A stretch of DNA of 39,124 nucleotides from a virus, in the IMG/VR virus record IMGVR_UViG_3300046794_000596, positions 1-39,124 of that record; one strand, written 5' to 3'. Each line of letters starts with the position of its first letter. The stretch's first letter is position 1. Of the stretch, positions 2,066 through 35,507 are shown in pieces. Below the pieces are notes generated by a model that did not search any database, had not been told where the DNA came from, and saw only the letters and a program-made list of their open reading frames with translations. The translations under genes and the position numbers were made by a program.

Positions 2066-3496
2066 TCAGGTGGTGGGGTTGAGGGCGCGGTTGACGATCG
2101 CCACGTCGCGGCCGATGGCTTCGGCGAGGCGGGGCTGAGTCCAGCCGTACGGTTCGGCGTTGAGGGCGCGGATCGCGGCGGTGCGGATCTCGATGGCTGC
2201 GGTGCGGCGCGCGGCCGCGGCCTCGTACACCGTGGCGATCTGCGGGAGTTCCTCGGCGGCGTTCGCAACGAACTGCACCCCGGCGGCCCGGGCGGCAGTG
2301 GGCTGCTCCTCCCGGCGGGGCAGGGCGGCGCCACGCTCCAGGCCGAGGGCGCGCTCCAGGACGCGGCGCATGCCCTGACGGGACAGGCCTGCGGAGTGGT
2401 AGGCGGCCCGGGCGGTGGTGAAGAACGCGAGGGAGGCGAGCGCCTGGTCCCGCTCGGGCAGTAGGCCGGCCATCTCGTCCTCCGCCTGGTCGACGGCGTC
2501 GGCGGCGCGGCGCAGCCGGTCCTCTGGGGAGACGGCGGTGCTGGCGAACTCGGCGCGGATCTCCTCGGTGGCCGTGCGGCGGATCTCGGGGAAGTCGGGG
2601 CGCTCCATTGGGCCGGAGGCGACGCGGCCGCCGGCCGTGCGTACCGCTTCGTGGGCGGCTTGGAGGCGTGCCAGGGCTGCGTCCCGGCGGGCTTCCGCGG
2701 CTTCGTAGAGCTGCGCGGCTTCTATCCCATGCGGGATGCAGTCCGGGAGGTGCTGGATGCCCACGCCCTTGGCGGCGGCCGCGGGGTCCTTCGGCCAGGC
2801 GCCGGGGGTGCGGCCGTCCTGCATGGTGCCGAGCGCGCTGCTGACGATGCGCCGCATCTGCATGTGGGTGATGCCGAAGTCGGCGGCGAGGTCCTGGCGC
2901 GGCTCGTACAGGGCGGCGGAGGTAAGGCACTGGTCCCGCTCGCGCTTGACCCCGGCCATCTCCAGGCTTGCCTGCGCGGCGATGTCCTCGGCGGCCGCGC
3001 GCTGCTCGGCCGGGTCGGTGACGGGGTCGAGGGCTGCGGCCACTTCCCGGACGGCGGCGGCACGGAGCTCGGCGTAGAGGGCGGCGAGGGCGGCGCGGGT
3101 GTGCTCCTGGGCGATGGCGTAGGCCTCGCACACCTGTCGTGTCTTGTCGTACAGGGCGTCGGGGTGCGGAATGCCGGCGGCCTGTGCGGCGGCCGCGCGC
3201 TCCTCGGGCTGGAGGTTGCTCCACGGCTCGGTGACGCCGGTGGTGGCGCGGGCGATGGCGGCCATCTGCTTCCACGTGACGCCGAGGCGGGTGGCGCCGT
3301 CCACGTCCGGGGGCTCGTACGCGGCGACCGCGGTGAGCAGCTGGTCGCGTTGGGGGGTGAGGGCGGCGAGCTCTCGGCGGCCTTGCTCGTGGAGTTCCGC
3401 GGCGTGCTGACGGCGCTCGTCCTCGGCACAAACGTCGAGGGAGGCGGCGATGTAGTCCGCTGCGGTTGCCGTGCCGTTGCTGCGACTGGCGTTCAT
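2066..3496 (-). CDS. Hypothetical protein with three repeated helical/HTH units
   Basis: This is a 476-residue, Ala/Arg/Glu-rich helical protein. A unit recurs three times: a helix with an (E/Q)RDQ motif (QRDQLLTAVAAYEP, ERDQCLTSAALYEP, ERDQALASLAFF), followed by an HTH-like stretch (LGVTWKQMAAIARATTG, FGITHMQMRRIVSSALG, AGLSRQGMRRVLERALG). A fourth HTH-like segment ends the protein (WTQPRLAEAIGRDVAIVNRAL). This suggests a multi-headed DNA-binding or coiled-coil protein. The ATG at 3496 is preceded by AAGG. A promoter module of the TTGACGTGGTGTAC type lies 96 bases upstream inside the preceding gene. No named family is recognised. Confidence 0.75.
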   Translation of the reverse strand: MNASRSNGTATAADYIAASLDVCAEDERRQHAAELHEQGRRELAALTPQRDQLLTAVAAYEPPDVDGATRLGVTWKQMAAIARATTGVTEPWSNLQPEERAAAAQAAGIPHPDALYDKTRQVCEAYAIAQEHTRAALAALYAELRAAAVREVAAALDPVTDPAEQRAAAEDIAAQASLEMAGVKRERDQCLTSAALYEPRQDLAADFGITHMQMRRIVSSALGTMQDGRTPGAWPKDPAAAAKGVGIQHLPDCIPHGIEAAQLYEAAEARRDAALARLQAAHEAVRTAGGRVASGPMERPDFPEIRRTATEEIRAEFASTAVSPEDRLRRAADAVDQAEDEMAGLLPERDQALASLAFFTTARAAYHSAGLSRQGMRRVLERALGLERGAALPRREEQPTAARAAGVQFVANAAEELPQIATVYEAAAARRTAAIEIRTAAIRALNAEPYGWTQPRLAEAIGRDVAIVNRALNPTT

Positions 3497-26963: not shown

Positions 26964-27059
26964 GCCACAGCTGCCCTGCGGGCGGTGTCAGTTGACGTTC
27001 CCTGCCGCGCCGTCGGCGGCCTGTGCCATAGTGGTCGGGCCGCCGGTGTCCGGTCGGCA

Positions 27060-27252
27060 GTGCTCCCCGCCGCTGCGGGGGTGAACCTACGCGGTCGAAT
27101 CTCCGGGCCGTCGAGTGCACTTTGTCCCCGCCGAAGCGGGGGTTCCCGGTCACGAGCGTGCGGCCGGCTCTGCTCCCCGCCGTCGCGGGGGTGACTCCTC
27201 ATGCTTCCCATGAGGCTCCGCTGACCATGCCCCGCGCTTGTGGGGGCGAACC
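27060..27252 (+). CRISPR. Degenerate type I-E-like repeat cluster (four units, no cas genes)
   Basis: Four 28-base units lie at 27060-27087, 27121-27148, 27170-27197 and 27225-27252. Their cores are CTCCCCGCCGCTGCGGGGG, TCCCCGCCGAAGCGGGGG, CTCCCCGCCGTCGCGGGGG and GCCCCGCGCTTGTGGGGG. Units 1 and 4 end GTGAACC/GCGAACC. This is the stem-loop and flank pattern of actinobacterial type I-E repeats. Start-to-start distances are 61, 49 and 55; the first equals the type I-E period (33-base spacer), while the others are 12 and 6 short. The repeats are diverged, and no cas genes are in the window. Alternatives are tandem operators or attenuator hairpins. Confidence 0.5.
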
Positions 27253-27264
27253 GGAGGAACTGAA

Positions 27265-33374: not shown

Positions 33375-33747
33375 TGGTCTTTCTGGTCGCGCGGAGCGGC
33401 TCGACCGCTGCTTGTCGGATGAGGCCGTGCCTGACGACCCGGACACGGCGCAGATGGTCATGGCCGCGGCCGCTCTCCGACCCAAGCACCCCATCAGCCC
33501 ATCAGCGCGCGCCCGCGCCTTCGACGCGATGATGCGCGAAGCCGACCGCGCCACCCGTGGGCCCCTGGCGACACCGGCCACCGAGGACGTCGTGGACCCC
33601 GGTATCCACTTCCGCGTCGCTCAGGCCGGGCCAGGCATGCGCATGCGCGTTGCCGACATCGAGGTAGTGGATGACAAGCGCATGGAGCAGATCGCCGCGA
33701 AGCTTGCGGCGCGTCTAGGTCAGAGAGCCCCGGATCGGAATCAGTGA
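33355..33747 (+). CDS. Putative anti-sigma-like cytoplasmic protein (130 aa)
   Basis: The ATG at 33355 lies inside the end of the sigma gene (GAGGGAG seven bases upstream), so the two are coupled. The first half is helical (RAERLDRCLSDEAVPDDPDT, MVMAAAALRPKHPISPSARA). It recalls the cytoplasmic, sigma-binding N-terminus of RsbN/DUF5667-type anti-sigma proteins, except that no membrane helix follows. The rest is mixed and basic. It also overlaps the next gene by GTGA. The anti-sigma role is inferred from position and weak similarity. Confidence 0.55.
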   Translation: MLGLGDSGLSGRAERLDRCLSDEAVPDDPDTAQMVMAAAALRPKHPISPSARARAFDAMMREADRATRGPLATPATEDVVDPGIHFRVAQAGPGMRMRVADIEVVDDKRMEQIAAKLAARLGQRAPDRNQ

Positions 33748-35507
33748 GCGGCACACAAGAACTGCGGGTTCTCCAGGAGGACATGGGCTCTGACGCCGTC
33801 ACCCTGGAGAACGTTGAAGAGGGCATCACCTACCTCTTCGTCAGCCCCAACCAGAGCTTCGACTCTGCGGTCAAGAGCACCCTCAAGGCCTGCCCCGAGC
33901 TGTCCATGACGCAGGTGCAGGACCTCGTGCGCAAGTACTGCCCGGACATCCGCGAGATGAACGAGCGCCTCAGGGCGGACCAGCCCCCCATACCCCGGTT
34001 CGAGGCCGCACCCGAGGCCGGCACTGTGATGCCCCCCGTGGAGAAGGGCGCGCACCGTCGATACCGGCCGCCGCGGTGGGTCCGTATCGCCGCTGTCGCC
34101 GCGCCCGCTCTGGTCGGCGGCACCTTGCTGGCTCAGCTCATCCACCCGCAGCAGTCCGCCAACCAGGGCCGCCAGGCTGCGGGCGCCTCCATCAGCCAGA
34201 AGGACGTGCCCTCCGTCTTCGATGACCCCACCTACAAGCAGTACGTCTCCGGTGGGAAGTTGCGCTGCCAGGCGGTCGGCCAGTACGCGGCCAAGTGCGT
34301 CGATGAAGACGGCCAGACCATGGTCAGTGAGGCGAGCGTAGGCGACTCGATCGTCTTCACGTTCTCCTACGACAGCGAGAAGATCGGGTTCCGCGTCTTC
34401 GATGACGCATCGGACGCCGCCGTGTGGGCGGCCGAGGACGGCAACCACAAGCTGTACGAGAACATGCAGGTCGTCGGCCGGGTCGTGCTGTGGGGCACCG
34501 ACACCAAGCGACTGCGCGACTGGGCTACGGCCATCTCCAACCACCAGGCGGAGCAGGGGGGTCGCGGCCAGGCTCTTGCCGCCTCCCTCTCGATGACCGC
34601 CGCTCTGCCCCCGCGGCTGGCTGAACTCGCCTTCGGCACGCTGGGCGTGACCGAGAAGGTGGTCAGAACGGCCGCCCATGCGGGCACCGTTCGGGCGGCG
34701 CAGATGCTGCGCGCCGTGGAGCTGGTGATGGGTGTCGCGGCGAAGCCGGACAACGACGGGGGCGGAAACGTTCCCTCTGGCTCCAATGACGCGGTCGCGA
34801 TCGCGGCGAATGCCCCGCAGCCTCCCACCGACAACGATCTCGACGCGAACGGCGGTGAGGGCACGACGCCCGTGGCGGCGCACCCTGTTGCGGCAGTGCC
34901 GACCACCCCGGTCACGCCTTCGACCCCGGTCACCCCGACCCCGGTCACCCCGACGCCGACGCCGGTGGATACGACGCCGGTCGACACGACGCCCGCGGAC
35001 ACGGCCCCGTCCGACACAGCGCCCGCGGACACGGCGCCCGCGGACACGACGCCGCCGCCCGCCGACCCAGCCCCGTCCGACCCGACGCCGCCGCCCGCCG
35101 ACCCGGCCCCGTCCTACCCGACGCCGCCGCCCGCGGACACGGCCCCGTCCGACCCGGCCCCGTCTGATCCGGCGCCCGCGGACCCGGCGCCGTCCGACCC
35201 GGCGCCCGCGGACCCGGCTCCGTCCGACCCGACGCCGCCGCCCGCGGACACGGCCCCGTCCGACCCGGCCGCTCAGGACCCGACGCCGGTACCGAGCGCC
35301 CCCGAGACGGGCGACCCGAGCACGCCGCCGGCGGACGACTCGACCAACGTGGACGACACCCACGTGCCGCCCGGCCAGGACCAGCACGAGGACACGCCGC
35401 CGCCCGGGCAGGCCAAGCAGGACGACGGCAACAACCAGGGCCAGGACGACGCCGGGCAGGGGGATGACCTGCTCATCCTGGATTCCGCCTGGACCGTGGC
35501 AGCCTGA
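33744..35507 (+). CDS. Single-pass membrane protein with Pro-rich tail, putative sigma regulator (587 aa)
   Basis: The N-terminal ~110 residues are cytoplasmic and helical, with Cys in LKACPELSMTQVQDLVRKYC. One membrane helix (about 113-134, WVRIAAVAAPALVGGTLLAQ) leads to an exterior domain. That domain has two Cys (LRCQAVGQYAAKCVDEDGQ) and beta strands (DSIVFTFSYDSEKIGFRVF). A helical stretch is followed by a ~170-residue Pro/Ala/Asp/Thr tail that could cross the cell wall. Coupled to the sigma and anti-sigma-like genes, it is best read as the membrane sensor arm of that system. A surface protein that merely shares the operon is an alternative. Confidence 0.62.
   Translation: MSGTQELRVLQEDMGSDAVTLENVEEGITYLFVSPNQSFDSAVKSTLKACPELSMTQVQDLVRKYCPDIREMNERLRADQPPIPRFEAAPEAGTVMPPVEKGAHRRYRPPRWVRIAAVAAPALVGGTLLAQLIHPQQSANQGRQAAGASISQKDVPSVFDDPTYKQYVSGGKLRCQAVGQYAAKCVDEDGQTMVSEASVGDSIVFTFSYDSEKIGFRVFDDASDAAVWAAEDGNHKLYENMQVVGRVVLWGTDTKRLRDWATAISNHQAEQGGRGQALAASLSMTAALPPRLAELAFGTLGVTEKVVRTAAHAGTVRAAQMLRAVELVMGVAAKPDNDGGGNVPSGSNDAVAIAANAPQPPTDNDLDANGGEGTTPVAAHPVAAVPTTPVTPSTPVTPTPVTPTPTPVDTTPVDTTPADTAPSDTAPADTAPADTTPPPADPAPSDPTPPPADPAPSYPTPPPADTAPSDPAPSDPAPADPAPSDPAPADPAPSDPTPPPADTAPSDPAAQDPTPVPSAPETGDPSTPPADDSTNVDDTHVPPGQDQHEDTPPPGQAKQDDGNNQGQDDAGQGDDLLILDSAWTVAA
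34960..35280 (+). repeat. Tandem Pro-Ala-Asp coding repeat
   Basis: Short degenerate units encoding TPADTAPSDTAPADTAP, then PPPADPAPSDPTPPPADPAP and variants, fill about 320 bases of the membrane protein gene. Such GC-rich repeats change length easily by slippage. Confidence 0.85.

Follow-up and report, generated by a model that had tools for sequence, protein, structure and literature searches.

The locus and the four repeat units

The window (the whole stretch of 39,124 nucleotides that was analysed) is an IMG/VR virus contig and was found to contain genes for a terminase small subunit, a ParB-like protein and an endolysin, in agreement with the phage-like region of the original prediction. 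The lack of cas genes, claimed at the same time, holds for the part that was scanned, as no cas family was found among 14 of the about 44 predicted window proteins compared with Pfam and/or PHROGs. At 33744-35507 of the plus strand, the window also encodes a 587-aa predicted protein with a probable membrane segment followed by a long Pro/Thr/Asp-rich repeat tail.

A cluster of four hairpins was found directly upstream of the gene P0001 (27265-27954, plus strand), which begins with a GTG start codon and encodes a protein of 229 aa. The hairpin sequence CCCCGCnnnnGCGGGG was present exactly at 27065, 27126 and 27175, followed by a fourth hairpin at 27230 with one G-U pair. The exact sequence occurred in the full window in the first three hairpins only. 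When two mismatches were allowed, 20 matches were found in the whole window against 27 expected from shuffles, which is no excess, and it is thus the exactness and the clustering of the hairpins that are unusual. Each unit was found to contain a 5-nt flank, a 6-bp stem, a 4-nt loop and an 8-nt handle, with unit starts at 27060, 27121, 27170 and 27225, and all four units lie on the coding strand and are oriented towards P0001. The intervals from unit to unit were 61, 49 and 55 nt, as predicted. The 61-nt period of the first pair was retained, whereas its division into 28 + 33 nt had to be replaced by 29 + 32 nt because the repeats of Streptomyces arrays are 29 nt long.

Repeat unit 1 (GTGCTCCCCGCCGCTGCGGGGGTGAACCT) occupies 27060-27088 of the plus strand and is followed by spacer 1 (27089-27120), which has the exact type I-E spacer length of 32 nt. 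Repeat unit 2 (TTTGTCCCCGCCGAAGCGGGGGTTCCCGG, 27121-27149) is followed by spacer 2 of 20 nt (27150-27169), its 49-nt interval being the second mode of the phage survey described below, and repeat unit 3 (CTGCTCCCCGCCGTCGCGGGGGTGACTCC, 27170-27198) by spacer 3 (27199-27224), for which 26 nt were read from the unit spacing. Repeat unit 4 (27225-27253) is degenerate, with the G-U pair in its stem, and adjoins the ribosome site, where the sequence GGAGG (27253-27257, plus strand) was read as the Shine-Dalgarno sequence of P0001. The cluster (27060-27253) reaches the ribosome site, and the feature is therefore best taken to extend as far as the P0001 start codon (27265); the proposed 5′ leader of the P0001 transcript, 27060-27264, would be an RNA of 205 nt.

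The presumed promoter of the leader contained the -10-like hexamer CATAGT (27027-27032, plus strand), about 27 nt before unit 1. By eye, a TAnnnT-like hexamer was present shortly 5′ of unit 1 in most P0001 leaders, the distance in the window being larger than in most relatives. An 8-bp inverted repeat, CGGCGGCC-16-GGCCGCCG, surrounds the -10 sequence (27014-27045) and is a possible operator (p 0.07 against shuffles). Similar inverted repeats were found in L013 and L016, but the median p across 19 leaders was 0.63, so that a P0001 operator in the promoter is not a general trait.

Comparison with type I-E repeats of Streptomyces

The reference repeats were read from arrays in 39 sequence segments, each no longer than 20 kb and mostly taken from the surroundings of Streptomyces cas6e genes. 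They were found to be 29 nt long (28 nt as read in group C) and to form group A (CTGCTCCCCGCGCnnGCGGGGATGGTCCC), group B (GTCCTCCCCGCCGACGCGGGGGTGTTCCG and GTGGTCCCCGCCGACGCGGGGGTGAACCG) and group C (GTCGTCCCCGCGCCTGCGGGGGTTGCTC). The predicted type I-E likeness was borne out by direct alignment with these repeats. Identity to the nearest repeat, non-palindromic flanks included, was 25 of 29 positions for unit 1 and 22 of 29 for unit 2 (both group B), followed by 23 of 29 for unit 3 and 20 of 29 for unit 4 (groups A and B alike). The likeness to a host repeat by which RNA anti-CRISPRs (Racrs) are recognised is thus present at 20-25 of 29 positions, the reference being Streptomyces type I-E arrays. 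The 8-nt handles were degenerate in some units, most of all in the last.

Units leaning to group A and units leaning to group B were found together, by profile score, in 14 of 21 P0001 leaders, most clearly in L007 and L014; true arrays do not mix repeat groups in this way. In the window leader, units 1 and 2 lean to group B only and units 3 and 4 lean to neither.

The units might also have no relation to CRISPR repeats and share only an outward resemblance with them, being GC-rich hairpins or operator sites in the DNA. GC-rich palindromes arise easily in a genome of 71% GC, the fold of the whole leader was no more stable than that of shuffles (z -0.16), and an Rfam search with the leader gave no match. 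However, the likeness covers the asymmetric flanks and the 61-nt (29 + 32) period, the G-U pairs of the stems suit an RNA more than a DNA palindrome, and the units are always oriented towards the gene, so that a chance resemblance is considered improbable.

Conservation of the units and search for spacer targets

Between divergent leaders, units 1, 2 and 3 were found to be 74, 76 and 67% identical, whereas spacers 1, 2 and 3 were 59, 51 and 49% identical against 54, 53 and 48% in shuffles. Spacer 1 was therefore slightly above the shuffled level, and spacers 2 and 3 were at that level. Equal conservation of spacers and repeats, named beforehand as a result that would speak against the original interpretation, was not what this comparison gave, since the repeats are kept and spacers 2 and 3 are not. 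Substitutions in the stems were compensated, pairing having partly been used to find the units. Among the spacers of the P0001 leaders, 32 nt, the type I-E value, was the most frequent length.

The spacers did not match any phage searched, nor any plasmid searched except their own source plasmid. Nor did their own promoters, the window or cas regions totalling about 0.69 Mb contain a site for them above the shuffled level, and the seed runs into their own promoter were 4.09 against 4.00 in shuffles. When the spacers of Streptomyces arrays were compared with the window, the best matches had 7 mismatches; there were 6 of these against 1 in the reversed control, which is not convincing. Self-targeting hosts were looked for in short contigs and none was found.

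A relic mini-array, one of three readings originally offered, or a captured mini-array directed against competing viruses would account for the repeat-spacer geometry, and virus-borne mini-arrays in viruses without cas genes have precedent in archaeal viruses (PMC6858448, PMC11656645). Virus-borne mini-CRISPR arrays (PMC6858448) differ from the present leader, which contains unequal repeats with spacers of 32, 20 and 26 nt instead of near-identical repeats with regular spacers, and no viral protospacers. The retention of the units beside spacers 2 and 3 at the shuffled level, the lack of spacer matches in the phages and in the plasmids other than the source, and the conservation of the cassette of leader and gene likewise speak against it, and the reading is regarded as most improbable.

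The spacers bear in the same way on a guide function, by which crRNA-like RNAs, as in CreA and CreR (CreTA modules and Cas-regulating RNAs; PMC9458426, PMC12737573), would lead the host Cascade to repress a phage promoter or the promoter of the host cas operon. The leader shares with these systems ectopic degenerate repeats, which are typical of CreA (PMC9458426), around short pseudo-spacers, and the 32-nt spacers and repeat-spacer-repeat form would suit a guide. No spacer was found to match its own promoter or a cas promoter, however; the spacers differ between leaders, no resident CRISPR locus is linked and up to six units are present. Such a guide is considered very unlikely.

The P0001 gene and its leader in other replicons

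The P0001 protein was found to contain an N-terminal winged-HTH-like part, followed by a GCRCxxC zinc-type motif and a second HTH-like part. The predicted fold (mean pLDDT 76, pTM 0.44) has the same winged-HTH-like N-terminal part, and the fold search gave short, weak partial matches to BldC and to MarR/MerR-type regulators, all with E > 0.1. Nothing was found above the cut-off in Pfam and NCBIfam and nothing with PADLOC, and PHROGs gave weak HTH/HNH matches only. P0001 may be the regulator of its operon, in a role like that of Aca proteins.

P0001 has relatives in phages, on plasmids and in Streptomyces genomes. Between one and six such hairpins were present on the strand of the gene, within 330 bases upstream of the relative, at 24 of the 25 loci. 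In total, these upstream regions (8.25 kb) contained 75 hairpins, whereas the remaining 377 kb of the same loci contained 34. No hairpin was seen at L010, at L043 or at L029, which is a broken copy; detection was strict and required a 4-nt loop. Most leaders hold 3-6 units, and the last hairpin lies 31-45 nt 5′ of the start codon in most loci. The hairpin of the one-unit leader L026, at -36, is still near the ribosome site. Nothing else was common to all loci when the gene neighbours, which vary and are mostly of unknown function, were compared, and the annotated phage collection contained no relative of the leader or of P0001.

Among large-phage contigs that share the terminase of the window, G001 and G002 were found to carry both leader and P0001, whereas G408, G409, G411 and G413, some of which are fragments, contained neither P0001 nor the cluster; this joint presence or absence indicates that leader and gene travel together. 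Cas6e was present in 5 of 15 cassette-bearing genomes against 160 of 394 genomes of the genus Streptomyces (about 41%). Streptomyces sp. DH12 (L020) is an example of a strain with both the cassette and a type I-E system. The cassette neither requires nor shuns a resident type I-E system, which fits mobile counter-defence and poorly fits an obligate control by Cascade.

A plasmid-borne type I-E operon was found in L349 (9678-18640; NZ_CP107915.1 189677-198639; also L008 and L136), with a helicase, Cse1, Cas7, Cas5 and Cas6, no annotated cse2, cas1 or cas2 nearby and an array of 3 units. 3′ of the array lies a relative of P0001 that has a decayed leader and a C terminus extended by a long stretch.

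The strict link of leader and P0001 across phages, plasmids and chromosomes, the finding that related phages have both or neither, and the hairpin kept near the ribosome site even in a one-unit leader could be explained if the leader mainly controls P0001 in cis. The ribosome site would then be opened or blocked when Cas6e cuts the last unit or Cascade assembles on it. One hairpin would do for this purpose, yet most leaders contain several; free-standing clusters that end in terminators exist in other phages (see below), and Cas6e in cassette genomes is not above the genus baseline. As the main function, such a sensor is regarded as rather unlikely.

Irregular clusters in other viral contigs

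Viral contigs were scanned with two patterns, and the survey figures refer to the matches listed. Many phages besides the window were found to carry clusters of unequal type I-E-like units. Among the matches listed, and after strict removal of related spacers, unequal neighbours were separated by 61 nt in 37 of 129 cases and by 62 nt in 11 more, followed by a second peak at 49-50 nt (36 of 129) with few values between the peaks. A ladder of 6 nt (a Cas7 step), considered from raw peaks at 43, 49, 55 and 61 nt, was rejected, as 61(-62) and 49-50 nt alone survived the removal of related spacers and the remaining 31 intervals showed no 6-nt period among the matches listed. Both intervals were found within one cluster in L277 (49, 49, 61, 49, 61) and L266 (61, 61, 49, 49, 49). 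The 49-50-nt interval was also present in degenerate clusters of Streptomyces genomes (G090, G169, G203) and occasionally inside true arrays (G075, G202, G248), so that this spacing is not unique to mimics. In type I-F, L = 6N - 4, and shortened complexes bind without triggering cleavage (PMC7296934). By extension from I-F to I-E, the 12-nt difference between the intervals might represent two Cas7 footprints.

A terminator-like hairpin was found within 170 nt 3′ of 56 of 77 listed clusters against 100 of 385 random pieces, the finder being loose with a background of 26%. The position of these hairpins points to free-standing RNAs, the clear cases being L277 (11310-11710) and L044 (minus strand, about 3070-3440), which contain six or more unequal type I-E-like units followed by an intrinsic terminator. 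The promoter-like sequence of L044, CATAGTGG, is that of the window. The P0001 leaders are the protein-gene version of this wider class of clusters.

The 437-kb jumbo-phage contig IMGVR_UViG_3300021978_000001 (L161, L260, L271 and L285) was found to contain several type I-E-like arrays and a Cas5-like protein, and several of its arrays finish with a shortened interval (48-52 nt) directly before a gene.

Relation to known systems and proposed function

Racrs are solitary repeat units, examples being RacrIE1/RacrIE2 and RacrIF1; type I-E is among the systems that such units inhibit, and a Racr may be transcribed together with a protein gene, as RacrIC1 is with AcrIC5 (PMC10651486). Inhibition by way of Cas6/Cas7 and a position close to acr genes are further marks of the class. 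The present leader is likewise a repeat mimic on a mobile element without cas genes, shortly behind a presumed promoter, but it contains several unequal units with spacer-length gaps ahead of an HTH-type gene. With four units in the window and one to six in relatives, it is not a Racr in the narrow sense of a solitary unit. The multi-unit form was outside the scope of the Racr search because repeats in arrays, or with a similar repeat within 100 bp, were discarded there (PMC10651486). The order of promoter, inhibitor and HTH-type protein in a mobile cassette is also that of acr-aca operons, with the differences that the inhibitor would here be an RNA and that P0001, as a putative regulator, was above the cut-off for no family searched.

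The reading preferred here, given about an even chance of being correct, is that 27060-27264 is the 5′ leader of P0001 and acts as an RNA anti-CRISPR of several units to which a regulator gene is attached. Transcription would begin near repeat 1, and in a type I-E host Cas6e would bind and cut the crRNA-like hairpins. The cut pieces, each with a repeat hairpin, a 5′-handle-like end and a filler of 20-32 nt, would tie up Cas6e, Cas5 and Cas7 without a useful target, and the shortened filler of some pieces might yield an undersized Cascade. The operon would be regulated by P0001, a protein of DNA-binding type translated from the same RNA. As the last hairpin adjoins the ribosome site, Cas6e or Cascade bound there could also shift the translation of P0001 according to the host's system.

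The proposed action of the leader as a decoy is supported by the type I-E repeat likeness with asymmetric flanks, the 32-nt commonest spacer, the conservation of repeats over spacers, the compensated stems, the targetless spacers, the terminator-ended phage clusters and the mixed-group leaders, and the decoy's target is common, given the frequency of Cas6e in Streptomyces. The tight tie to one gene family, which a trans-acting decoy would not need, counts against it, as do the degenerate handles, the group-B lean limited to units 1 and 2 in the window and the self-targeting hosts not found in short contigs. The other two readings originally offered, a repeat-mimic anti-CRISPR and a recruited regulatory leader, both still stand: the terminator-ended relatives favour the former as the general function, whereas the nearly constant position of the last hairpin, next to the ribosome site in a single gene family, speaks for some regulatory role of the leader. 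The roles of RNA decoy and cis-acting sensor can coexist.

More broadly, and more tentatively, actinobacterial phages and plasmids may carry undescribed multi-unit crRNA mimics, which would combine on one transcript unequal units imitating several type I-E repeat types of the host genus with filler often 12 nt short, leading to an undersized, cleavage-dead Cascade; the P0001 cassette would be an RNA-acr/aca operon that could also sense the host CRISPR system. No description of multi-unit or leader-embedded Racr forms was found in the open-access literature, outside which lie preprints and most subscription journals. If the clusters inhibit immunity, RNA anti-CRISPRs of actinobacterial phages would be commoner and more elaborate than thought, and the 20-nt filler, if the proposal is true, would be a natural poisoning of Cascade through subunit number. 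The share of sampled Streptomyces with Cas6e gives this relevance for phages and plasmids whose hosts produce antibiotics.

Two further families of small genes recur 3′ of degenerate clusters in different phages, one in L220, L265 and L290 and the other in L252, L291 and L293, and are possible further examples of linked regulator or anti-CRISPR genes.
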